Of a DNA stretch of 10,538 nucleotides, positions 98-10,509 are shown in pieces. The position numbers and the translations under genes were made by a program. Source of the DNA: a bacterium (GTDB lineage: Bacteria > RBG-13-66-14). Within the stretch, counting starts at the first letter, position 1. Every line of letters starts with the position of its first letter. Location: NCBI GenBank assembly GCA_035528375.1, contig DATKYS010000026.1, positions 1-10,538 of the forward strand, read 5' to 3'. The notes beneath the pieces were generated by a model, which made no database searches, was not told the origin of the DNA, and saw nothing but the letters and a program-made list of their open reading frames with translations.

Positions 98-1042
98 TTA
101 AAACACCGACAGGTTCAGATACCGACGGGGGTCTTCGATGATGTTGTCCAACAGCGTCTTGGCCTTTTTGAGGGTTTCGGTGAAGTCCACGTAGGCCTCG
201 TCCGAGTAGATGAGCTTCCCGACGGTCCCCTCGCCCGAGGCGATCTGGGCGACGATGGAGTTGATGTGGTCCACGGCCAGGGTGGCGCCGGAGGCGACCT
301 CCTCGATGCTCGCCACGGCGCTCTCGAACCGGGGGAGCGAGCGGGCCAGGGTTCCCTCGAAGTCCTGGGTTATCCGGGAGGCGCTGGCGGTTATCTGGGA
401 GACGTTGTCGGTTATCTGTCGCAGGTTCCTCACGGCGGCGGTGATCTCGCCCGTCGAGAGCTTGATCAGCTCGTCCAGGTCGGTGGCCATCGAGTCTATG
501 TGTACGATGGTGTCCTTGATCTGGGCCACCGTCTCTTCGTCGAAGAGGTTTGATAAGTCGGCCAGGGCGTCCCCGATCTTGATCACGATGCTGCCCGCCG
601 ACTCGAAGAGCTCGTCCATGCCGATGGAACGCTCGCCCTTGACGGTCGAGCCGGGCGGGACCACGGGCGAGTCGCTCGTGCCGGGCGTGATGTCCACGTA
701 CTTGTCGGCCATCAGCCCCTTCAGGCGGATGGCGATGACCGAGTTCTCCCGCACCACGACGTCTTCTTCCAGCCGGAGGATCACCTTGACCATGGGGGAG
801 TCGGAGCCCTCGGGCTTGAACCACTCGACGGATTCGACGCTGCCGGCGCGCACGCCGGCGTAGAGGACCTTGGCCTCGGTGACCAGTCCCGCGGCGGAGT
901 CGAAGATGACCGTTATCGTGTAGCCCCGGTGGAAGAGCTGGCACTCACCCGTGGAGAAAATGAGCGCGACGAATATCGCCAGGGCGACGACGACGGTGAT
1001 CCCGACCTTGAGCTCGGCGGAACGTTTTATCTTTTTACTCAT
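98..1042 (-). CDS. mlaD: MlaD-family MCE-domain protein of a phospholipid ABC transporter
   Basis: This is the substrate-binding, membrane-anchored subunit of an Mla-type lipid transporter (314 aa). MCE proteins form hexameric rings in the periplasm that pass phospholipids between the inner membrane and the outer envelope. A single N-terminal membrane helix lies at about residues 11-30. The MCE domain follows at about 40-121, with the typical GVRAGSVESV stretch (63-72) and KGLMADKYVDI (108-118). A long helical, Ser/Thr-rich region covers about 135-265. The C-terminus (GEGTVGKLIYSDEAY, then PRRYLNLSVF at the very end) matches the usual end of MlaD/Ttg2C-like proteins in FCB-type bacteria. The ATG start has only a weak AGG upstream. 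It lies 42 bases after mlaF, and a TACAAT-like box in that gap (1056-1061) lacks a convincing -35. Family assignment is secure; the exact lipid and direction of transport are not visible. Confidence 0.93.
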   Translation of the reverse strand: MSKKIKRSAELKVGITVVVALAIFVALIFSTGECQLFHRGYTITVIFDSAAGLVTEAKVLYAGVRAGSVESVEWFKPEGSDSPMVKVILRLEEDVVVRENSVIAIRLKGLMADKYVDITPGTSDSPVVPPGSTVKGERSIGMDELFESAGSIVIKIGDALADLSNLFDEETVAQIKDTIVHIDSMATDLDELIKLSTGEITAAVRNLRQITDNVSQITASASRITQDFEGTLARSLPRFESAVASIEEVASGATLAVDHINSIVAQIASGEGTVGKLIYSDEAYVDFTETLKKAKTLLDNIIEDPRRYLNLSVF

Positions 1043-1084
1043 GTTGAACCTGACTATTGTACCAAAATCGCCTGACTGCCGCGA

Positions 1085-1852
1085 TCACTTGAACAGGGGG
1101 TTTATGGGCCCCCGGGCGCGGCCCTGGATGAACTGCTGCACGTAGGGATTCTCGGTGGCGCGGACCTCCTCGGCCGTGCCGTCGAAGATTATCCTCCCCT
1201 CGTGCAGCATGGCGATGCGGTCGGCGGTCTTGTAGGCCGAGGCCATGTCGTGGGTGATGATGACCGTGGTCGCCCGGGTCAGGTCCTTGGTCTCGTTGAT
1301 GAGATCGTTTATGGCGGCGGCGGTGATGGGGTCGAGGCCCGAGGTGGGCTCGTCGTAGAGGATTATCTGGGGCTCGCCCACCAGGGCTCGCGCCAGCCCC
1401 GCCCGCTTCTTCATCCCCCCGGAGAGCTCCGCCGGCATCAGGTGCGCCGTCTCCGGGAGGCCCACCTGCGCCAGCTTTTCGTCCACGATGCGGTCCACCT
1501 CGTCGGGCGGGGTGTCGGTGTGGTTGTCCAGAAAGAAGCCCACGTTCTCGCGGATGTTCAGCGAATCGAACAGGGCGGCGAACTGGAAGACGTAGCCCGC
1601 CCGGGAGCGTATCTCGTGCAGTTCGGCGAGGCTGGCCCCGTTCACCCGGATTCCCAGGCACCACACGTCCCCCTCGGTCGGCTGCAGGAGGCCCAGCACG
1701 TGCTTCAAGAGCACGCTCTTGCCCACGCCGGAGCGCCCGATGATGGCGATGGACTCCCCGCGGTGGATATCCAGGTCCACCCCCTCGAGCACCACCGTCT
1801 CGCCGAAGCTCTTGCGAAGGTTACGGGTCCGGATGACCGTCTCGGGGTCCAA
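1085..1852 (-). CDS. mlaF: MlaF-like ABC transporter ATP-binding protein
   Basis: ATPase subunit that powers the lipid transporter formed with the neighbouring MlaE permease and MlaD (255 aa from the chosen start). All ABC motifs are present: Walker A GRSGVGKS (39-46, Lys45), Q-loop Gln90, signature LSGGMKKR (143-150), Walker B IILYDEP (163-169, Glu168) and H-loop His201. LSGGMKKR, rather than the usual LSGGQ, is the hallmark of the MlaF/Ttg2A branch. The reading frame is open further upstream (to 1999), but that part lies inside mlaE and is Arg-rich shadow sequence. The best start is a TTG at 1852-1850, preceded by AGAGGGAG, 8 bases after the mlaE stop; it gives an N-terminus of normal length. 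The rare start codon and short gap suggest translation coupled to mlaE. Confidence 0.93.
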   Translation of the reverse strand: MDPETVIRTRNLRKSFGETVVLEGVDLDIHRGESIAIIGRSGVGKSVLLKHVLGLLQPTEGDVWCLGIRVNGASLAELHEIRSRAGYVFQFAALFDSLNIRENVGFFLDNHTDTPPDEVDRIVDEKLAQVGLPETAHLMPAELSGGMKKRAGLARALVGEPQIILYDEPTSGLDPITAAAINDLINETKDLTRATTVIITHDMASAYKTADRIAMLHEGRIIFDGTAEEVRATENPYVQQFIQGRARGPINPLFK

Positions 1853-1860
1853 GGCTCCCT

Positions 1861-2664
1861 CTAATCGAAGGCGATGAAGAAGAGCGTGGTCAAGAGCACG
1901 TCCACGATGAGGATGTTCACGGCGCTGACGACGACGGCGTTGGTGGTGGACCGGCCGACCCCCTCGGCCCCGCCGAAGGTCGAGAAGCCGTAGTAGCAAC
2001 TGATGAGCGTGAGGACCTGGCCGAAGGCGAAGGCCTTGATGAGGCCGCTGACGATGTCCCAGACGTTGGAGAAGGCGTCGAGCTCGGCGATGTAGACGCC
2101 GGGGTCCACGTCGGCCAGGACGGTGCAGACGAAAAAGGAGCCCACCTGGGCCACGCCCATGGCCAGGGCGGTGAGCGCCGGCGCCATGACGGCCATGGCG
2201 ATGATTCTGGGGGCCACGAGGTAGCGGAAGGGGTCGCTGGCCAGGGTCTCCAGGGCGTCTATCTGCTCGGTGACGCGCATGGTGCCGAGCTCGGCGGCCA
2301 TGGCCGCCCCCACGCGGCCGGCGAGCATGATGGCCGTGAGCACCGGCCCCAGCTCCCGGGCGAAGAGGACCGACACCATGCCGCCCACGTACGCCTCGGC
2401 TCCGAAGACCTTGAGCGAGTTCACCGACTGGAGCGCGATGACCATCCCGGTGAAGAGCGCGGTCATGGTCACCACGCCGATGGACTCCACCCCGAGGCGC
2501 ATCATCTGATCGTAGACGAGCTTGCCCCGGGGCCGCCGCCGGGCGATGCGGGCCACGGTCCGGCCGTAGAAGATGAACATGCCCCCCACGGCATGGGTCT
2601 TCTCCAGCAGCCAGTCGCCGATGCGCTCGAAGGTGTTCATCTTCAATGTGTCAGCTCGCGGCAC
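1861..2664 (-). CDS. mlaE: MlaE-family phospholipid ABC transporter permease
   Basis: Inner-membrane permease of the Mla-type transporter (267 aa, normal length). An amphipathic N-terminal part is followed by about five hydrophobic segments (roughly 62-82, 101-122, 150-185, 205-226 and 243-266). The family signature is clear: ARELGPVLTAIMLAGR (102-117) and GAAMAAELGTMRVTEQIDAL (119-138), then DPFRYLVAPR (144-153). Two starts are possible. A GTG at 2664 lies 3 bases after the alr stop and has GGAG 6 bases upstream; an ATG at 2640 (beginning MNTFERIGDW) has a poorer ribosome site. I prefer the GTG because of its Shine-Dalgarno match and its coupling to alr, but the ATG would give an equally plausible protein 8 residues shorter. 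It works with the MlaF ATPase and MlaD immediately downstream. Confidence 0.94.
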   Translation of the reverse strand: MPRADTLKMNTFERIGDWLLEKTHAVGGMFIFYGRTVARIARRRPRGKLVYDQMMRLGVESIGVVTMTALFTGMVIALQSVNSLKVFGAEAYVGGMVSVLFARELGPVLTAIMLAGRVGAAMAAELGTMRVTEQIDALETLASDPFRYLVAPRIIAMAVMAPALTALAMGVAQVGSFFVCTVLADVDPGVYIAELDAFSNVWDIVSGLIKAFAFGQVLTLISCYYGFSTFGGAEGVGRSTTNAVVVSAVNILIVDVLLTTLFFIAFD

Positions 2665-2667
2665 GGC

Positions 2668-3813
2668 TCACTCCGTCCGGAGGTAGTGCCGGGGGACGCG
2701 CTCCGACAGCCCGCAGGTGACCTCGTAGGGGATGGTGTCCATCCAGCGGGCCGCCTCCTCGACCTCTATCTTGGAGCCCGAGTAGTCGCGGCCCAGCAGG
2801 GTGACCACCTCGCCCGGGGCCACCTCGCCGAGGCCCCCCAGGTCCACCATGCACATGTCCATGCAGATGGCGCCGATGATGGGCCTCCTCTGGCCCCGCA
2901 CCAGCGCCTCGGCCCGGCCCGAGAGGCTCCTGCGCCAGCCGTCGGCGTAGCCCAGCGGCAGGACGCCCACGGACGTCTCCCGCTCCAGCCGGTGGAGGCG
3001 GCCGTAGCTCACCGTGGTCCCGGCGGGGAGCGTCTTGACCGCCGCGATGCGGGCCCGCAGGGCGATGGCCGTCCGGACGCCCAGGTTGCGGGTCACGTTT
3101 GGACTGGAGTAGCTGCCGTAGAGGGCCAGGCCCGGCCGGACCATGTCCAGAAAACTTTCGGGGAGGTCGGCGATGGCGGCGGAGTTGGCGGCGTGGCAGA
3201 GCTCGGGGCGAAGCCCATTTCTTTCCAGCTCCCGGCGGACCTTGGCGAAGCGCTCGAGCTGCTCGCGGGCGAAGCTCCTGTCCTCGCCGTCGGCCAGGGG
3301 GAAGTGGGTCATGAGCCCGGCGACGTGGACCCCGGGGACGGCCTCGATGCGCGCCGCCGTTTCGGGCGCGTCCTCGTGCCACACCCCCAGGCGCCCCATG
3401 CCGGTGTCCACCTTGACGTGGACGTCGAAGTCGCGGCGGTAGGCGTCCAGCCAACCCATCCGCGCCAGGCGCTCGCCCAGGTGCCCGGCCAGCCCGGCGT
3501 CGGACAGGACCGGGGTCAGCCGGTACTTGATCACCGCGTCCAGCTCGTCCGCCAGGGGGGTGACCAGGCAGAGGATCGGCTGATCGAAACCGGCCTGGCG
3601 GAGCTCCACCCCCTCGTCCACGAAGCTGACGCCGAACCAGTCGGCGTAGGGGTCCAGGGCCCGGGCGACCTCGAGCTTGCCGTGGCCATAGGCGTCGGAC
3701 TTGACCACGGCCATGATTTTCACGCCGCGGCCGACCCGCTCCCGGACGGCGAGGAGGTTGTCGCGGATGGCCGAGAGGTCCACCTCGGCCCAGATGGGAC
3801 GGTTGGGATACAT
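2668..3813 (-). CDS. alr: Alanine racemase
   Basis: Cytoplasmic PLP enzyme that interconverts L- and D-alanine and so feeds D-Ala-D-Ala into peptidoglycan (381 aa, normal length). The N-terminal barrel carries the PLP-lysine motif VVKSDAYGHG (Lys38). KVDTGMGRLG (134-143) holds the lysine that is carbamylated in some characterised homologues. CHAANSAA (206-213) and RPGLALYG (226-233) are PLP-contact regions. The C-terminal beta domain begins near the catalytic Tyr270 in TVSYG and includes LPLGYADGWRR (285-295) and the CMDMCMVD loop (317-324). Every expected catalytic residue is present. The ATG start lacks a strong Shine-Dalgarno. A 78-base gap separates it from dnaB, and mlaE follows after 3 bases, so alr heads the alr-mlaE-mlaF-mlaD unit. 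Confidence 0.96.
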   Translation of the reverse strand: MYPNRPIWAEVDLSAIRDNLLAVRERVGRGVKIMAVVKSDAYGHGKLEVARALDPYADWFGVSFVDEGVELRQAGFDQPILCLVTPLADELDAVIKYRLTPVLSDAGLAGHLGERLARMGWLDAYRRDFDVHVKVDTGMGRLGVWHEDAPETAARIEAVPGVHVAGLMTHFPLADGEDRSFAREQLERFAKVRRELERNGLRPELCHAANSAAIADLPESFLDMVRPGLALYGSYSSPNVTRNLGVRTAIALRARIAAVKTLPAGTTVSYGRLHRLERETSVGVLPLGYADGWRRSLSGRAEALVRGQRRPIIGAICMDMCMVDLGGLGEVAPGEVVTLLGRDYSGSKIEVEEAARWMDTIPYEVTCGLSERVPRHYLRTE

Positions 3814-3855
3814 CGTCTGAACGGCCGGGCCCGACCGGCTCTATCACGCCGTGTT

Positions 3856-3884
3856 AGGCTAATCCAGCGCGTCCGAGATGTCAA
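3856..3884 (-). promoter_or_regulatory. Possible sigma70 promoter for alr-mlaEFD
   Basis: On the minus strand a perfect TTGACA (3884-3879) is followed after exactly 17 bases by TAGCCT (3861-3856), a poor -10 with 3 of 6 matches. It lies in the 78-base gap just after the dnaB stop, and a start near 3849 would leave a leader of about 36 bases before alr. The strong -35 and good spacing support it; the weak -10 keeps it tentative. alr may instead, or also, be read through from dnaB, since no terminator is visible between the two genes. Confidence 0.4.
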
Positions 3885-3891
3885 GGCGGGG

Positions 3892-5358
3892 TCAGAAGGG
3901 GGCGCCCTCCCCGGAGGACGAGGACTTCGCGGGGGTGCGGAAGGAGCGGTCCAGGCTCTCGAAACGCATGAACTTCTTGCGGAACACGAGGTACACGGAG
4001 CCCACCGGGCCGTTGCGCTGCTTGGCGACGATGACCTGGCTGATGCCGGGCATCCGGGCCAGGTCGTCGGTGAGGCCGCCGCCGTTGCCGTAGTCCGGGC
4101 CCTCCGCCGCCTCCTGGGCCTCCTCGCCGGGGCTGGAGACCTGGTAGTACTCCTCGCGGTGCAAAAACATCACCACGTCGGCGTCCTGCTCGATGGCGCC
4201 CGATTCGCGCAGGTCCGAGAGCAGGGGCATCTTGGACCGGGGGCGGTTCACCGGCTGGCGGTTGAGCTGGGCGACGGCCAGGATGGGGACGTCGAGCTCC
4301 TTGGCCAGCGCCTTGAGGGAGCGGGAGATTTCGGCCACCTCGACCTGGCGGCTCTCCGTGCGGCGGTGGGTGGCGGTCATGAGCTGGAGGTAGTCCACGA
4401 CGATGAGCCCGACGCCCTTCTGCTTGACCAGTCGGCGGGCCTTGGCCCGCAGCTCCAGCACCGACAGGGCCGGGGTGTCGTCCAGGTAGAAGGGGGCGTT
4501 GGAGAGGCGGGCCACCTTGTTGATGAATTTTTCCATGTCGCCCTCGGAGACCAGCCCCCGGCGCACCTTCTGGGAGTCCACCCGCGCCTCGGAGCACAGC
4601 ATCCGCCGCACCAGCTCCTCCGCCGACATCTCCAGGGAGAAGAACCCGACCCCGATGCCCTGGTCAATGGCGATGCGCTGGGAGATGTTGAGCCCCAGGG
4701 CCGTCTTGCCCATGCCGGGCCGGCTCGCCAGGACGATGAGGTTGCCCCGGTGGAAGCCGGAGAGAATCTCGTCGAGGTCGAAGAAGCCGGTGAGGATTTC
4801 GCTCTGGGTGGAGCGCCCCTCGTGAAGGGCGCGTATCTCCTCCAGGGCGGAGTCCACCAGCTCGGAAAGCGGCCTCACCTCGCGGCGCATCCGCCTCTCG
4901 GCGATTTCCAGGATCAGCCCCTCGGCCTTCTCCAGGACGGTGGCCGGGGGCTCGGCGTCGGCGCGGGCCGATTCGTTTATCACCGACGCCGCCCTCACCA
5001 GCGAGCGCAGAATCGCCTTGTCGCGGATTATCTCAAGGTGGGACGCCAGCCCCGCCGTGGACGCCGTGGATTCCTTCACCTCCACCAGGTAGCCCAGCTC
5101 GGAGTCGGTGAGCCCCTCGGGCGAGCGCCGCAGCTCGTCGGAGACGGTCACCAGGTCAATGGCGCCGTCCCGCTTGGAGTAGAGGGTCATGATTGCGGTG
5201 TAGATTCGCCCGTGGAGGGGTTTTAAGAAGTCGTCGGGCCGCAGCGCGGCCTCGATGGAGCGGTGTACCGCCTCGGGGTAGCGCAGCGCCGCGCCCAGGG
5301 TCAGGCGCTCCGCCTCCAGGCTCGCGGGCAGGCCGAGGTCGTGCTCCAGTTCGTCCAT
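3892..5358 (-). CDS. dnaB: Replicative DNA helicase DnaB
   Basis: Hexameric 5'-3' helicase that unwinds the replication fork and recruits primase (488 aa). The N-terminal DnaB domain (about 14-115) contains the usual EAERLTLGAAL start, and a linker helix leads to the RecA-like motor (about 190-470). In the motor are Walker A SRPGMGKT (212-219, Lys218), the catalytic Glu in FSLEMS (Glu243), Walker B LIVVDYLQLM (318-327), the sensor glutamine in AVAQLNR (Gln364) and the arginine-finger loop AKQRNGPVG (445-453). There is no intein. Between REEYY (401-405) and ISQVIVAKQR the protein has about 33 residues that are acidic and Gly-rich; E. coli DnaB has roughly a dozen there. The C-terminus is a Ser-rich tail. 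The ATG has AAGGA 6 bases upstream. It is the first gene of the leftward block and has its own promoter. Confidence 0.97.
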   Translation of the reverse strand: MDELEHDLGLPASLEAERLTLGAALRYPEAVHRSIEAALRPDDFLKPLHGRIYTAIMTLYSKRDGAIDLVTVSDELRRSPEGLTDSELGYLVEVKESTASTAGLASHLEIIRDKAILRSLVRAASVINESARADAEPPATVLEKAEGLILEIAERRMRREVRPLSELVDSALEEIRALHEGRSTQSEILTGFFDLDEILSGFHRGNLIVLASRPGMGKTALGLNISQRIAIDQGIGVGFFSLEMSAEELVRRMLCSEARVDSQKVRRGLVSEGDMEKFINKVARLSNAPFYLDDTPALSVLELRAKARRLVKQKGVGLIVVDYLQLMTATHRRTESRQVEVAEISRSLKALAKELDVPILAVAQLNRQPVNRPRSKMPLLSDLRESGAIEQDADVVMFLHREEYYQVSSPGEEAQEAAEGPDYGNGGGLTDDLARMPGISQVIVAKQRNGPVGSVYLVFRKKFMRFESLDRSFRTPAKSSSSGEGAPF

Positions 5359-5405
5359 CGGGCGTCCTTGACGGGTCGGGGGGGGTGAACGGGGGCGAGG
5401 GTTTC

Positions 5406-5434
5406 AGTGTACCTCAACACCGTTGACGTGGCAA
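5406..5434 (-). promoter_or_regulatory. Likely sigma70 promoter for dnaB
   Basis: On the minus strand TTGCCA (5434-5429; 5 of 6 matches to TTGACA), a 17-base spacer and TACACT (5411-5406; 4 of 6 matches to TATAAT) fit a sigma70-type promoter. Transcription would start near 5399, giving a leader of about 40 bases with AAGGA placed correctly before the dnaB ATG. Confidence 0.5.
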
Positions 5435-5452
5435 TAAAGGGATGGGTATTTT
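5423..5452 (+). promoter_or_regulatory. Possible promoter for the ligase-permease pair
   Basis: TTGACG (5423-5428) and TATTTT (5447-5452) are separated by 18 bases and could start transcription near 5459. This overlaps the -35 box of the opposite dnaB promoter, so the two would compete for polymerase. If correct, it rules out the upstream ATG at 5442, which would lie before the transcript start, and supports the ATG at 5517. Both boxes are imperfect. Confidence 0.3.
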
Positions 5453-5516
5453 CAATAAATCCGCCCCGGCGGGCGCCGGTGGACGCGCCGCGGCCGCCGT
5501 GCTAATATCGCCCAAA

Positions 5517-6605
5517 ATGGCAACGAGGAGGCGCGTGGAGCTCTTCACCCTGGGCGTCGAGGAGGAGTTCGGGCTGGTGGACCCGGCCACGGGCCGGCTC
5601 ACGCCCCGCATCGCCGAGACCCTCTCCACGCTCTCGGAGGCCGAGCGGGTCGAAATCAAGCCCGACGTCCACCAGGCGACGCTGGAGATCGCCACCCCGG
5701 TGTGCCTGGACCTGGAGGAGGTGCGGGCGGAGCTCCGGCGCCTGCGTCACCTGGCGCGGCGGGCGGCGAACCGGGCCGGCGTGGAGCTCCTCCCCGTGGG
5801 GGCCCACCCGAACTGCCGCTGGCGCGAGCAGCCCGTGGTGGACTACCCCCGCTACCACCGCCTGGCGGAGTACCAGGGCGACAAGTGGCTCAAGTGCCTC
5901 TTCTGGGGCCTCCACGTCCACCTGGGGGTGCCCGAAGAAGAGGAGCGCATCACCATCGCCAACGGCCTTCGCCCGTACCTGCCGCTCTTCATCGCCTGCG
6001 CCGCCAACTCGCCCTTCTGGGAGGGGGAGCGTCATCCGGCCGCCGACGCGCGCCTGGACATCTACTCCCGCCTGGAGACCGTGGGCGCGCCGCCTTTATT
6101 GAAGAGCTTCGCCGACGTGGACGCCGCGATTCTGGCCCTCGCCTCCCAGGGCGCCACCGTGGAGAAGGACCTGTACTGGGACATCCGCCCCCGCCGGATG
6201 CTCCCCACCGTGGAGGTGCGCGTCTGCGACATGCAGACCACGGTGGAGGACTCGACGGCCCTCGTCGGGCTAATCGTCCTGGCCGCGCTGGCGGTGCGCT
6301 GGGGCGACGGGCGTCTGTCCGCCGCCGAGGATGAGATTTCTCCGAACCGAGCCGCCGCCATCGCGGGGGGCCTCGACGCCCACATCAGCCTCGGCGGTGA
6401 AATATCCACCGTCGCCGAGGCCGTCCTGGGTTTCCTCGACCGCTCCCGGGACCTGGCCGCCTCCGCCGGGCTGGCCGACGTCCACGCCCTGGTCGCGGAC
6501 CGGGTGTCGCGGCGCTTTTGGCCGGGTGAGCGCCTGTTGGACCTCCACGAAAAGTTCTCCGGCGAGGAGCAGAAAATCGTCGCCGGGCTCGTCTCCCTTT
6601 TATAA
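5517..6605 (+). CDS. YbdK-type carboxylate-amine ligase (GCS2 family)
   Basis: Member of the glutamate-cysteine ligase type 2 family (362 aa; E. coli YbdK is about 370). These ATP-grasp-like enzymes join a carboxylate to an amine using ATP; E. coli YbdK has only weak gamma-glutamylcysteine ligase activity in vitro, so the natural substrate is unknown. Visible motifs are LGVEEEFGLVDP (12-23), KPDVHQATLEIATPVC (48-63), GLHVHLGVP (131-139), LPLFIACAANSPFWEG (155-170) and WDIRPRRMLPTVEVRVCDMQ (221-240), all typical of the family. The frame is open back to an ATG at 5442, but that extension is Ala/Gly-rich and not conserved in character, so ATG 5517 is preferred. A GTG at 5535 with GAGGAGG just upstream is another candidate. 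The permease gene begins 5 bases after the stop, suggesting an operon. Confidence 0.9.
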   Translation: MATRRRVELFTLGVEEEFGLVDPATGRLTPRIAETLSTLSEAERVEIKPDVHQATLEIATPVCLDLEEVRAELRRLRHLARRAANRAGVELLPVGAHPNCRWREQPVVDYPRYHRLAEYQGDKWLKCLFWGLHVHLGVPEEEERITIANGLRPYLPLFIACAANSPFWEGERHPAADARLDIYSRLETVGAPPLLKSFADVDAAILALASQGATVEKDLYWDIRPRRMLPTVEVRVCDMQTTVEDSTALVGLIVLAALAVRWGDGRLSAAEDEISPNRAAAIAGGLDAHISLGGEISTVAEAVLGFLDRSRDLAASAGLADVHALVADRVSRRFWPGERLLDLHEKFSGEEQKIVAGLVSLL

Positions 6606-6610
6606 AAAAA

Positions 6611-7879
6611 ATGGAATCCCGCCGCCACCCCTTCTGGATCTTTTTCACCGGCACCCTGCGCGAGGCCGGGCGCATCGCCCTCGACGCCATCCGCTCCAAC
6701 AAGCTGCGCAGCTTTTTGACCGTCCTGGGAATCGTCATCGGGGTCACGGTCATCATCACCCTGGTGAGCCTCATCGAGGGGCTGTCGAACAGCGTGGCGG
6801 AGCACATAGGCTCGCTGGGCTCGAACTACATCTACGTGAGCACCATGCCCGCCATCCAGACGGGACGGCCCGACCCCGAGATCATGTTCCGCCCGGACCT
6901 CAGCCTGGACGACGCACAGGCCATCGCGGAGTTCTGCCCCGACGTGGAGGCGGTCACGCCGATGTACTTCACCGCGGCCCGCGTCACCCACGGCGGCTCC
7001 TCCACCGACACGGTCATGGTCAGCGGGGGCAACGAGGATTTCTGCCTGGTCAACGCGCTGGACATGGAGATCGGTCGGGACCTGACCCGCGCCGACGTGC
7101 GGGCGCGGCGGCGGGTGACCGTCATCGGCGCCGACATTGCCGAGGCGCTCTTCGGCTCCCGCGACCCCGTGGGCCGCGAGGTCCGCATCGGGCGCCACAG
7201 GTTCACCGTGATCGGGGTGCTCGAGCGGCGGGGAGATTTTCTGGGCCAGAGCCAGGACACCTACGTCATCGTCCCCCACACGCTCTTCGGGACCATCTTC
7301 GAGCCGACCCGGATGGGCCGGAGCAAGCTGTTCATCATCGCGACCAGCACGTCGCCCGCCACGGTCCTGCGGGCCGCCGACGAGATTGAGAGCCTCCTGC
7401 GCCGCCGCCGCGGCGTCGGGCCCGCCGAGGACAACAACTTCGAAGTCTCCACCCAGGGCGGCCTTCTCGATGTCTTCAAGGAGATGGAGACCGTCCTCTA
7501 CGCCGTCCTGATCGGCGTGGCTTCCATGTCGCTTCTCGTCGGCGGCATCGGCATCATGAACATCATGCTCGTCGCCGTAACCGAGCGCACGCGGGAGGTG
7601 GGCGTGCGCAAGGCCATCGGCGCCCGCCGCCGCGACATCACCGCCCAGTTCGTCACCGAGTCCGTGGTGCTGACCCTCTTCGGCGGGGTGGTCGGCGTGG
7701 GCCTGGGGTGGGGGATGGCGGCTATTCTGTCCGCGATACTCGAGCTACCAAACGCCATCACCTGGTGGTCCATCCTATTGGGCCTCTCCTTCAGCGTCAT
7801 CGTCGGCCTCTTCTTCGGCACATATCCCGCCATCAAAGCCTCCCGCCTGGACCCCATAGACGCCCTGCGGTACGAGTAG
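6611..7879 (+). CDS. MacB/FtsX-type ABC transporter permease
   Basis: Inner-membrane permease of the type VII ABC (mechanotransmission) class, which includes MacB, LolC/E and FtsX (422 aa). The topology is standard: one N-terminal membrane helix (about 34-56, after the conserved SNKLRSFLTVLGIVIGV), a large periplasmic MacB-PCD domain (about 60-290), then three C-terminal helices (about 294-323, 350-377 and 384-405). The cytoplasmic loop TERTREVGVRKAIGAR (324-339) and the ending PAIKASRLDPIDALRYE are diagnostic. No ATPase or membrane-fusion gene adjoins it here, so it must pair with a MacB/LolD-like ATPase encoded elsewhere. The ATG follows a run of A bases and has no Shine-Dalgarno. The 5-base gap to the ligase gene implies co-expression and perhaps translational coupling. 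The substrate is unknown; peptides, lipoproteins or antibiotics are possible from the family. Confidence 0.9.
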   Translation: MESRRHPFWIFFTGTLREAGRIALDAIRSNKLRSFLTVLGIVIGVTVIITLVSLIEGLSNSVAEHIGSLGSNYIYVSTMPAIQTGRPDPEIMFRPDLSLDDAQAIAEFCPDVEAVTPMYFTAARVTHGGSSTDTVMVSGGNEDFCLVNALDMEIGRDLTRADVRARRRVTVIGADIAEALFGSRDPVGREVRIGRHRFTVIGVLERRGDFLGQSQDTYVIVPHTLFGTIFEPTRMGRSKLFIIATSTSPATVLRAADEIESLLRRRRGVGPAEDNNFEVSTQGGLLDVFKEMETVLYAVLIGVASMSLLVGGIGIMNIMLVAVTERTREVGVRKAIGARRRDITAQFVTESVVLTLFGGVVGVGLGWGMAAILSAILELPNAITWWSILLGLSFSVIVGLFFGTYPAIKASRLDPIDALRYE

Positions 7880-7960: not shown

Positions 7961-8359
7961 CTAGTACAAATGAATATCCGCATGAACCGGTCCTTGCAGC
8001 GGAAAACCAAATCGTTTTTCTCCGGTTTTTAAGTCGTTTGTGCAGTCAACCTTGCCGAACCAACCAGAGGGCCAGCCGTCCTTCAGGGGGTCGAACTCGT
8101 AGTAGCCGACCCCGTTTGTGCTTACGCCGGCGATGTCAATCCAGTCGTCTTCTTCCGACTCCCTTTTGCAAACAAACACCGGGGCCCCTACCACTGGGAT
8201 TTCTGTACCACCGCCCTCGTAGACGTATCCCCATACCTTATCCGCGTCGTGGGCCAGGGGGTTCACCTCGTCGTCCGTCGAGACAGCGTCGGAGCAGGCG
8301 ATTAAACCGATGACGCTGGCGGCGATAACGGCGAGGAGCACTCTGTACAGCGTTTTCAT
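7961..8359 (-). CDS. Small lipoprotein with a transthyretin/carboxypeptidase-regulatory-like fold
   Basis: Predicted lipoprotein of 132 aa. Residues 1-22 form a lipoprotein signal peptide (basic MKTLYR, hydrophobic core, lipobox LIAC with the lipidated Cys22). Ser follows the cysteine, which by the E. coli rule would favour the outer membrane. After an acidic linker comes a single small domain with the pattern WGYVYEG...VVGAPVFV...STNGVGYYEF, which resembles carboxypeptidase-regulatory-like or related Ig-type beta-sandwiches. Two cysteines (64 and 106) could form a disulfide. I do not recognise a specific family. The ATG at 8359 is preferred; a GTG at 8371 would add four residues but has no better ribosome site. 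The gene converges on the permease operon and diverges from the large propeller gene, so it may belong with the latter functionally, but that is an inference. Confidence 0.75.
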   Translation of the reverse strand: MKTLYRVLLAVIAASVIGLIACSDAVSTDDEVNPLAHDADKVWGYVYEGGGTEIPVVGAPVFVCKRESEEDDWIDIAGVSTNGVGYYEFDPLKDGWPSGWFGKVDCTNDLKTGEKRFGFPLQGPVHADIHLY

Positions 8360-8401
8360 CCGTTTACGCACTTTTGTGGATTCGAGGAAACCTCAATTTA
8401 T

Positions 8402-8613: not shown

Positions 8614-10509
8614 ATGAAAGCGCTTCACTTTTGCTTGATTCTACTCGTCTTGGTATCCACCTCACTAGCAGGTGAGTGGCGCATCGAGACGGTGGACTCG
8701 ACGGATAACGTGGGTAAATTCACCTCCCTAGCGCTGGACTCCTCCGGTTACCCCCACATCTCGTATTACGATTACACCAACATTGATCTCAAATACGCAC
8801 GGTGGGACGGCGCCGCATGGCGGATAGAGACCGTGGACTCAGGAGGAGACGTGGGCGCGTACACCTCCCTGGCGCTGGACTCCTCCGACTACCCCCACAT
8901 CTCGTATCGCGATAGCACCAACGATAATCTCAAATACGCCCGCTGGGACGGCGACGAATGGCTGATCGAGACCGTGGACTCGGCGGGAGATGTGGGCTAT
9001 TGGATCTCTCTGGCGCTGGATGACTCCGGCTACCCGCATATCTCGTATGCAGCCGATTATAACGGTGATCTCAAATATGCCCGCTGGGATGGCGCCGAAT
9101 GGCGGATCGAAACCGTGGACTCGGCGGGAGATGTGGGCGGTTTCAGCTCCCTGGCGCTGGATTCCAACAATTACCCTCATATCTCGTATAACGAGTTTCT
9201 CGGCTTAACCGGTTATTTAAAGTACGCCCGCTGGGACGGCGCCGCATGGCGGATCGAGATCGTGGACTCAACAGGAAGCTCGGGCGTCTGGACCTCCCTG
9301 GCGTTGGATTCCAACGATTACCCACACATCTCGTGTAGCGTAGGCGATGACTCAGACTTGCTATATGCCCGCTGGGACGGCGCCGCCTGGCAAATCGAGA
9401 TAGTGGATTCGGATGATTGGGTGGGCCTGTACACCTCCCTGGCGATTGATTCCAACGACTACCCCCACATCTCGTATGGTTATTTCGTAGATTACACTGA
9501 TTATGATTTGAAGTACGCCCGCTGGGACGGCGCTGAATGGCGGATAGAGACGGTGGACTCGGAGGGGAACGTGGGCCAGTGGACCTCCCTGGCGCTTGAT
9601 GCTTCCGATAATCCGTATATTTCGTATTACGATGGGAGCAATAAAAACTTGAAGCTTGCTCGGTACGAACCCAACCGTTTTCACCTGCTTAGCCCCGGAA
9701 AAGGTGACACGATATACGAATTTCCCTTTACGTTCGACTGGGAGGACCACGACCTCGACGGGCTCGAGAGCTACACCCTCTGGTGGGGGACAGACCCGGA
9801 CTTTTTAACTTACAACGAGGTCACGGATATCGGCGAATCGGAGTATACGATAACGGGGGGCATCGAGGACGGGGCACGCGTCTGGTGGCGGGTGAAATCA
9901 CTGGACTCGGAGGGCGGGGAGTACTGGGCCGAGGAGCTGGACTGGTACTTCGATGTTGACCTGGGCGGCGGGATTGATCTTGCCGATTTCGGCGCGGGCT
10001 CGACCGACGAGGGCGTTTTGGTCAACTGGCGCCTCTCGGGCGGGGAACCGGCCGGGGTGCGCGTCCTGCGGGGCGAGGGCGAGCCGGAGGTTATATCAGG
10101 AAATTTAACCGGCGATTCATCGAGATACCTCGACCGCGGCGTGGAGCCGGGCGGGAGTTACGCCTATTGGCTGGAAGTGACCGAGGGCGATGGGACGGTC
10201 AGCCGCTTCGGCCCCACGGAGGCCGTCACCGTACCCGAGGAAACGTTTGCTCTCGTCCTCTACGCCGCCTACCCGAGTCCGTCGCGGGATGTCGTCAACT
10301 TCGTCTACTCCCTGCCCGATGACGGCCGCGTCGTGCTGTCGGTGTACGATTTATCGGGTCGGCGCGTGGCGACGCTGGTTGATTCGGAGCTGACCGCAGG
10401 TCGGCACGAAGTCTCCTGGAACTGCGCGGAAATCCCCTCCGGCGTTTACCTCTACCGTCTGGAAACGTCCGCCGGGTCGCTGACGCGGCGGCTGGTCGTC
10501 AGCCGGTAA
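8614..10509 (+). CDS. Secreted seven-repeat beta-propeller protein with FN3-like and sorting-type C-terminal domains
   Basis: Predicted exported protein of 631 aa. Residues 1-19 are a signal peptide (MKALHFC..., cleavage after SLA). Residues 20-353 are seven tandem repeats of 46-50 residues with the core WRIETVDS...TSLALDSSxYPHISY...DLKYARWDG, most simply a seven-bladed beta-propeller. Residues about 354-450 and 451-545 look like FN3-type beta domains (FDWEDHDLDGLESYTLWW; VNWRLSGGEPAGVRVLRG). The last 80 or so residues (YPSPSRD..., LSVYDLSGRRVATL, GRHEVSWN, SGVYLYRLE) match the FlgD-Ig/type IX sorting-domain pattern, which directs export and surface attachment in FCB bacteria. The ATG at 8614 is chosen because of the promoter at 8548-8576 and the signal peptide. 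The function is unknown; such propellers often bind glycans or proteins, and no catalytic motif is seen. The repeat part is less GC-rich than the C-terminal part. Confidence 0.85.
   Translation: MKALHFCLILLVLVSTSLAGEWRIETVDSTDNVGKFTSLALDSSGYPHISYYDYTNIDLKYARWDGAAWRIETVDSGGDVGAYTSLALDSSDYPHISYRDSTNDNLKYARWDGDEWLIETVDSAGDVGYWISLALDDSGYPHISYAADYNGDLKYARWDGAEWRIETVDSAGDVGGFSSLALDSNNYPHISYNEFLGLTGYLKYARWDGAAWRIEIVDSTGSSGVWTSLALDSNDYPHISCSVGDDSDLLYARWDGAAWQIEIVDSDDWVGLYTSLAIDSNDYPHISYGYFVDYTDYDLKYARWDGAEWRIETVDSEGNVGQWTSLALDASDNPYISYYDGSNKNLKLARYEPNRFHLLSPGKGDTIYEFPFTFDWEDHDLDGLESYTLWWGTDPDFLTYNEVTDIGESEYTITGGIEDGARVWWRVKSLDSEGGEYWAEELDWYFDVDLGGGIDLADFGAGSTDEGVLVNWRLSGGEPAGVRVLRGEGEPEVISGNLTGDSSRYLDRGVEPGGSYAYWLEVTEGDGTVSRFGPTEAVTVPEETFALVLYAAYPSPSRDVVNFVYSLPDDGRVVLSVYDLSGRRVATLVDSELTAGRHEVSWNCAEIPSGVYLYRLETSAGSLTRRLVVSR
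8671..9672 (+). repeat. Seven tandem 138-150 bp coding repeats
   Basis: In-frame units lie at 8671-8814, 8815-8955, 8956-9096, 9097-9243, 9244-9384, 9385-9534 and 9535-9672, encoding 48, 47, 47, 49, 47, 50 and 46 residues. The DNA is well conserved around the segments coding TSLALDS, YPHIS and KYARWDG, which points to tandem duplication followed by divergence or gene conversion. The last unit is the most diverged at its 3' end (KLARYEP instead of KYARWDG), as expected for the edge of an array. Confidence 0.92.

Follow-up and report, generated by a model that had tools for sequence, protein, structure and literature searches.

The window analysed here, a stretch of 10,538 nucleotides, is an entire contig from a 2.63 Mb genome whose nearest named relatives are Candidatus Coatesbacteria. 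At 8614-10509 on the plus strand it encodes a propeller protein of 631 amino acids, which runs from a signal peptide through seven repeats to a type IX secretion system (T9SS) type A sorting domain. ATG 8614 is the likely start of the gene; the longest listed open reading frame begins at TTG 8575. The features are, all on the plus strand:

8614-8670, +: signal peptide MKALHFCLILLVLVSTSLA, read by eye from the translation, with ATG 8614 as the probable start
8677-9681, +: seven-repeat array, one predicted seven-bladed beta-propeller (repeat profile, AlphaFold2, Foldseek, VIA-align), with 28 predicted strands, the first of which (WRIETVD) probably closes blade 7
8677-8817, +: repeat 1 (repeat profile)
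8818-8958, +: repeat 2 (repeat profile)
8959-9099, +: repeat 3 (repeat profile)
9100-9246, +: repeat 4, with a 2-residue insertion in the B-C loop
9247-9387, +: repeat 5 (repeat profile)
9388-9537, +: repeat 6, with a 3-residue insertion in the B-C loop
9538-9675, +: repeat 7, with no W-strand after it
9676-10248, +: middle region without a Pfam match (residues 355-545)
10270-10500, +: T9SS type A C-terminal sorting domain (TIGR04183, Por_Secre_tail; also PF18962 and the genome scan)

Ordinary genes fill 98-7879 (MlaD, an Mla-type ATPase, MlaE, alanine racemase, DnaB, a GCS2 ligase and a MacB-like permease), and no operon that includes the propeller gene is evident among them. On the minus strand, 7961-8371 encodes a lipoprotein-like secreted protein of 136 residues, transcribed divergently from the propeller gene and without a Pfam match.

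The seven repeats, of about 47 residues each, start at residues 22, 69, 116, 163, 212, 259 and 309 (spacing 47, 47, 47, 49, 47 and 50). Tandem Repeats Finder independently reported a 141-base array at 8677-9600 with a score of 625, and our repeat profile makes exactly seven matches in the protein at 69-95 bits each, which places the array far above chance. The initial annotation had counted exactly seven repeats at these coordinates, directly behind the signal peptide, and both points hold: the array follows the signal peptide MKALHFCLILLVLVSTSLA-G at residue 22. Its description of the repeats as near-identical was too strong, as their pairwise identity is 50-74% (mean 64%).

Predicted fold and closure of the ring

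We ran the structure prediction that had been proposed with the initial annotation, giving AlphaFold2 the window protein together with 63 homologous propellers (64 sequences). The result is a confident seven-bladed propeller (pLDDT 95.8, pTM 0.93) with 28 strands, four per repeat, and these four correspond to the strand-like segments picked out earlier by eye. The top Foldseek matches are the Photorhabdus lectins PLL4, PHL and PLL2 (E 8e-14 to 4e-13), followed by GH145 enzymes, fungal and bacterial fucose lectins and PL25. VIA-align places CylK first (Z 35.1, rmsd 2.8, 323 aligned), ahead of virginiamycin B lyase (Z 31.8), BP39L (30.6) and PLL4 (29.8). With both programs, seven-bladed PDB chains match the propeller over its full length, and the model thus confirms that the seven repeats are predicted to form one closed seven-bladed beta-propeller. 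Designed TIM barrels, which came top when the PDB was searched with family profiles, were rejected as artefacts of repetitive queries because their fold and strand content disagree.

The repeat carries a motif of its own. WD40, Kelch and NHL models all failed to match the window protein, as had been suspected from the consensus, and the suspicion that it is no strict Asp-box was also borne out: across 898 junctions the Asp-box (BNR) pattern S-x-D-x-G-x-T-W between strands 3 and 4 is not what the repeats carry, since the strict motif occurs at 2 and a short Asp-box motif at 54, while [DNST]-G-x-x-W occurs at 686. The place of an Asp-box in a blade is between strands 3 and 4 (PMC2716378), and the turn W-[DN]-G-x-x-W occupies this place without being an Asp-box.

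We derived strand order and faces from DSSP, the aligned ranges and the Asp-box position. Because an Asp-box would lie at the turn that leads from LKYARW into the following W-strand, WxIETVD should be an outer strand, and the N-terminal strand should then close blade 7. Each 47-residue unit would begin with the outer strand D (W-x-I-E-T-V-D) and continue through a top loop to the inner strand A (T-S-L-A-L-D), a bottom turn, strand B (P-H-I-S-Y), a second top loop and strand C (L-K-Y-A-x-W), from which the turn [DN]-G-x-x would lead to the D strand of the next unit. The first WRIETVD strand therefore probably completes the last blade as its outer strand, in a velcro closure, so that repeat unit and blade probably do not coincide. 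Closure of the last blade by the first D strand would set the blade count at seven. The end of repeat 7 is degenerate (LKLARYEP), as expected at the point where a ring closes.

Blade number and spread of the family

To count repeats we ran an iterated one-repeat profile over all open reading frames in the fetched loci and considered distinct complete arrays. Seven repeats were found in 101 arrays, fourteen in 11 and fifteen (fourteen plus one weak copy) in 2; arrays of 12, 9 and 8 repeats each occur once as complete ones. By locus, the exceptions are L036/L185 (9 repeats), L192 (8) and L103 (12). Shorter arrays are mostly frame-split or distant, and L011 and L109 (6 repeats) and L165 (5) are among the few without such an explanation. 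Two frame-split genes still add up to seven (4+3 in L163, 5+2 in L113). The propeller genes of L163, L113 and L067 are broken by frame changes that may be sequencing errors or real decay. In the host genome a one-repeat query, which cannot favour seven, found 83 repeats at 13 loci; all 12 complete propeller loci have seven repeats and the thirteenth runs off its contig. Blade number is thus quantised at 7 or 14 with few exceptions, in agreement with the earlier expectation that homologues would lie near multiples of seven. The strict count offers a clean natural example of repeat number set by fold closure.

Fourteen uninterrupted repeats are seen at L055, L073, L075, L086, L091, L095, L101, L107 and L116; L075 belongs to a named strain, Chloroflexus islandicus isl-2. 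The archaeal L055 protein was predicted with a pLDDT of 91, a pTM of 0.76 and 56 strands. PLL lectins align to this model at residues 16-340 (TM up to 0.78 on the target), while the roughly 290-326 residues aligned to CylK and virginiamycin B lyase are spread from 1-2 to 663 (326 residues over 2-663 for CylK). These aligned ranges suggest that L055 consists of two interlocked seven-bladed rings and that the first strand of the protein closes the second. The 14 WD40 blades of WRAP likewise form two seven-bladed rings (PMC9218822).

The family extends to Chloroflexota, Armatimonadota, Thermoplasmata, Methanoculleus and others. The restriction to candidate phyla that the initial annotation had proposed for a family of surface-binding propellers therefore falls, whereas surface binding itself is a reading that the T9SS sorting domain and machinery suggest. 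A search of viral contigs and phages gave no relatives, and a plasmid search gave three distant ones and no others. Outside the host phylum the partner domains are LRR, PKD, M23, kelch and FIMAH; one Chloroflexota frame of 2103 residues (L051) joins an M23 peptidase, a propeller, many LRRs, Fn3 and a choice-of-anchor D domain. In the tree, 10 of the 61 inner branches are starred, and support is too weak for arguing gene transfer.

Among the 64 members Pfam finds DUF7253 in 60 and BNR_4 in 29, and the matches that we inspected are scattered and partial. We did not adopt DUF7253 as the family's identity, since its matches take in just about 20-36 of the 110 residues in the model; a literature search for it gave no paper. 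Single-member Pfam/NCBIfam matches to HisB, MtrF and a phage head chaperone were partial, fell on the repeat and were rejected. The family is uncharacterised and widespread, and it lies inside the known realm of seven-bladed propellers as kin to sugar-binding lectins. A large family across bacteria and archaea gains with this a firm structural footing and a diagnostic motif.

Probable export, variation and possible function

TIGR04183 matches the window protein at 39.3 bits against a cut-off of 23 (E 4.7e-10), and PF18962 matches as well. The TIGR04183 scan of the host genome gave 46 type A sorting domains over cut-off. SprA is present in all 14 genomes of the phylum, over cut-off in 12, the host genome among them, which also encodes a PorU-like protein whose score of 250.9 bits (E 5.7e-75) falls short of the curated cut-off, 420. 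The protein thus has what defines a T9SS type A cargo, a C-terminal sorting domain and a SprA translocon in the genome. Because sorting domain and machinery are both present, we infer that the propeller is probably exported to the cell surface via T9SS; the signal peptide and type IX export would carry the ring out, and the C-terminal sorting domain would hold it outside the cell. Set against the 46 sorting domains over cut-off are about 13 propeller loci, some of which lack a sorting domain. For Coatesbacteria, represented here by one 2.6 Mb genome, the propellers point to a sizeable portion of the exported surface proteins.

Compared with the orthologue from RBG_13_66_14 (Coatesbacteria), dN is 0.24 in the D-A loop and 0.39 in the B-C loop and only 0.05-0.10 in the strands, where dS is 0.28-0.79; the same loop-versus-strand pattern is seen with paralogue C130. 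Across 895 blades the D-A and B-C loops are also the most variable by entropy (2.87 and 3.32 bits). Both loops belong to the same face of a propeller. With dN/dS in the top loops at about 0.4-0.6, and so under 1, the data do not demonstrate diversifying selection, and relaxed constraint is as good an explanation of the variability as ligand diversification. The positional register of the blades is preserved with the orthologue (0.79 at the same position, 0.65 at other positions) and with C130 (0.71 and 0.64), but not with the other paralogues that were compared. Within 9694-10053, residues 361-390 are 100% identical in DNA to C130 and residues 391-480 are 99% identical to paralogue C137. These 361-480 stretches are 90-100% identical to C130 or C137 DNA and most of the remaining sequence 56-88%, so the paralogues are probably mosaics, as gene conversion would produce.

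Taken jointly, a closed ring, T9SS export and multivalent lectin-like binding seem to us a fairly probable description of this protein. The blade framework would stay fixed while the variable top face (D-A and B-C loops) sets specificity, and one ring would offer a number of equivalent sites for binding; such equivalence is suggested by the variable top face together with the lack of blade-specific conserved catalytic residues. Whether the putative ligand is a glycan is nearly an even question, leaning slightly to the negative. The host genome would carry about 13 such rings, whose putative ligands may differ between paralogues. That the family forms a class of multivalent surface receptors not described before, with a frozen framework, a diversifying face and module exchange between paralogues, is rather unlikely; if true, a T9SS-bearing cell would display around a dozen rings with differing ligands. 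A caveat to the lectin view is that propellers of this superfamily also act as enzymes or scaffolds.

The ring could instead be a protein-protein scaffold or a part of a surface layer, binding surface proteins rather than glycans. Beta-propellers often are platforms for protein interaction (PMC8916777), and homologues occur within very large multidomain proteins having LRR, PKD or M23 domains. However, many lectins stand among the nearest relatives in sequence and fold, and no partner gene adjoining the propeller gene is evident, so we regard this role as unlikely.

We find it quite unlikely that the protein acts enzymatically on carbohydrates after export, as a polysaccharide lyase or rhamnosidase-like propeller of the GH145/PL24/PL25/PL42 kind. 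The sialidase/BNR flavour sensed in the initial annotation is genuine, though distant (Pfam BNR_4, GH145): the isolated propeller scores 44.1 bits with BNR_4 (cut-off 27.3), over partial matches, a two-repeat profile matches BT3686 (E 1.4e-4) and BACOVA_03493 (8.9e-4), and GH145 and PL25 are among the Foldseek matches. The full-length protein, however, does not match BNR_4. Enzymes of this type have unique catalytic residues at particular places in the ring (PMC8377490). Here, every column that reaches 90% conservation in the 64 sequences is a repeat-consensus position. None is a blade-specific His, Arg, Tyr or Glu, so that a single active site is not visible.

It is highly improbable that the ring is a recently amplified propeller, a product of blade amplification as yet without a specialised function: the mean blade identity is just over the 60% median threshold for highly repetitive propellers (PMC9218822) and the distant paralogues lack register, but the register kept with another species' orthologue and the strong purifying selection on strand codons argue that the gene is old and maintained.

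Comparison with known propellers

The multivalent, lectin-like reading finds structural parallels in the Photorhabdus PLL/PHL lectins (with BP39L and CV39L), which are seven-bladed like the window propeller (Foldseek E 8e-14, TM 0.70-0.75, VIA Z 28-31). Identity in the structural alignments is 8-13%, and sequence searches with the family did not match PLL lectins. PHL has its sugar sites between blades, and in PLL lectins paired Trp and Thr residues form fucose sites there (PMC5584973). The window family has conserved Trp pairs, and the analysis gave no evidence of Trp/Thr fucose sites of the PLL kind.

In sequence, there is a detectable likeness to RSL. Taken by itself, one homologue (L053) reaches RSL constructs with an E of 4e-9 and the native RSL with 0.002, aligning 'hisyyd...wdgsaw' with 'hirvya...wdgngw', so that the W-D-G-x-x-W turn is common to both. 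Of the 64 homologues, 9 match NF052355 (RSL/AAL) with E values no higher than 0.1, the best being 8.5e-9; the window protein itself does not match. Rings of the RSL/AAL type have six blades, whereas the window family has 7 or 14 repeats. In RSL an Arg and a Glu bind fucose in each site; the corresponding positions are mostly Ser/Ala and Tyr here, and an RSL-type pair of R/K plus E/D/Q occurs in none of 895 blades, which makes fucose binding of the RSL type unlikely. At the level of sequence, the blades are kin to those of RSL-type lectins without belonging to them.

GH145/PL24/PL25/PL42 and BNR_4 proteins are seven-bladed as well, with a weak sequence match and a fold Z of 27-28. Unlike them, the window family has seven blades conserved alike and no blade-specific catalytic residues. 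CylK and virginiamycin B lyase give the top VIA Z scores (35.1 and 31.8), yet their identity is 9-14%, and CylK has an extra N-terminal calcium-binding domain with its catalytic site at the domain interface (PMC8916777). The window protein shares an internal blade identity above 60% with the highly repetitive propellers described by Pereira and Lupas, such as WRAP (PMC9218822); WRAP is of the WD40 type, whereas the window family has a motif of its own.
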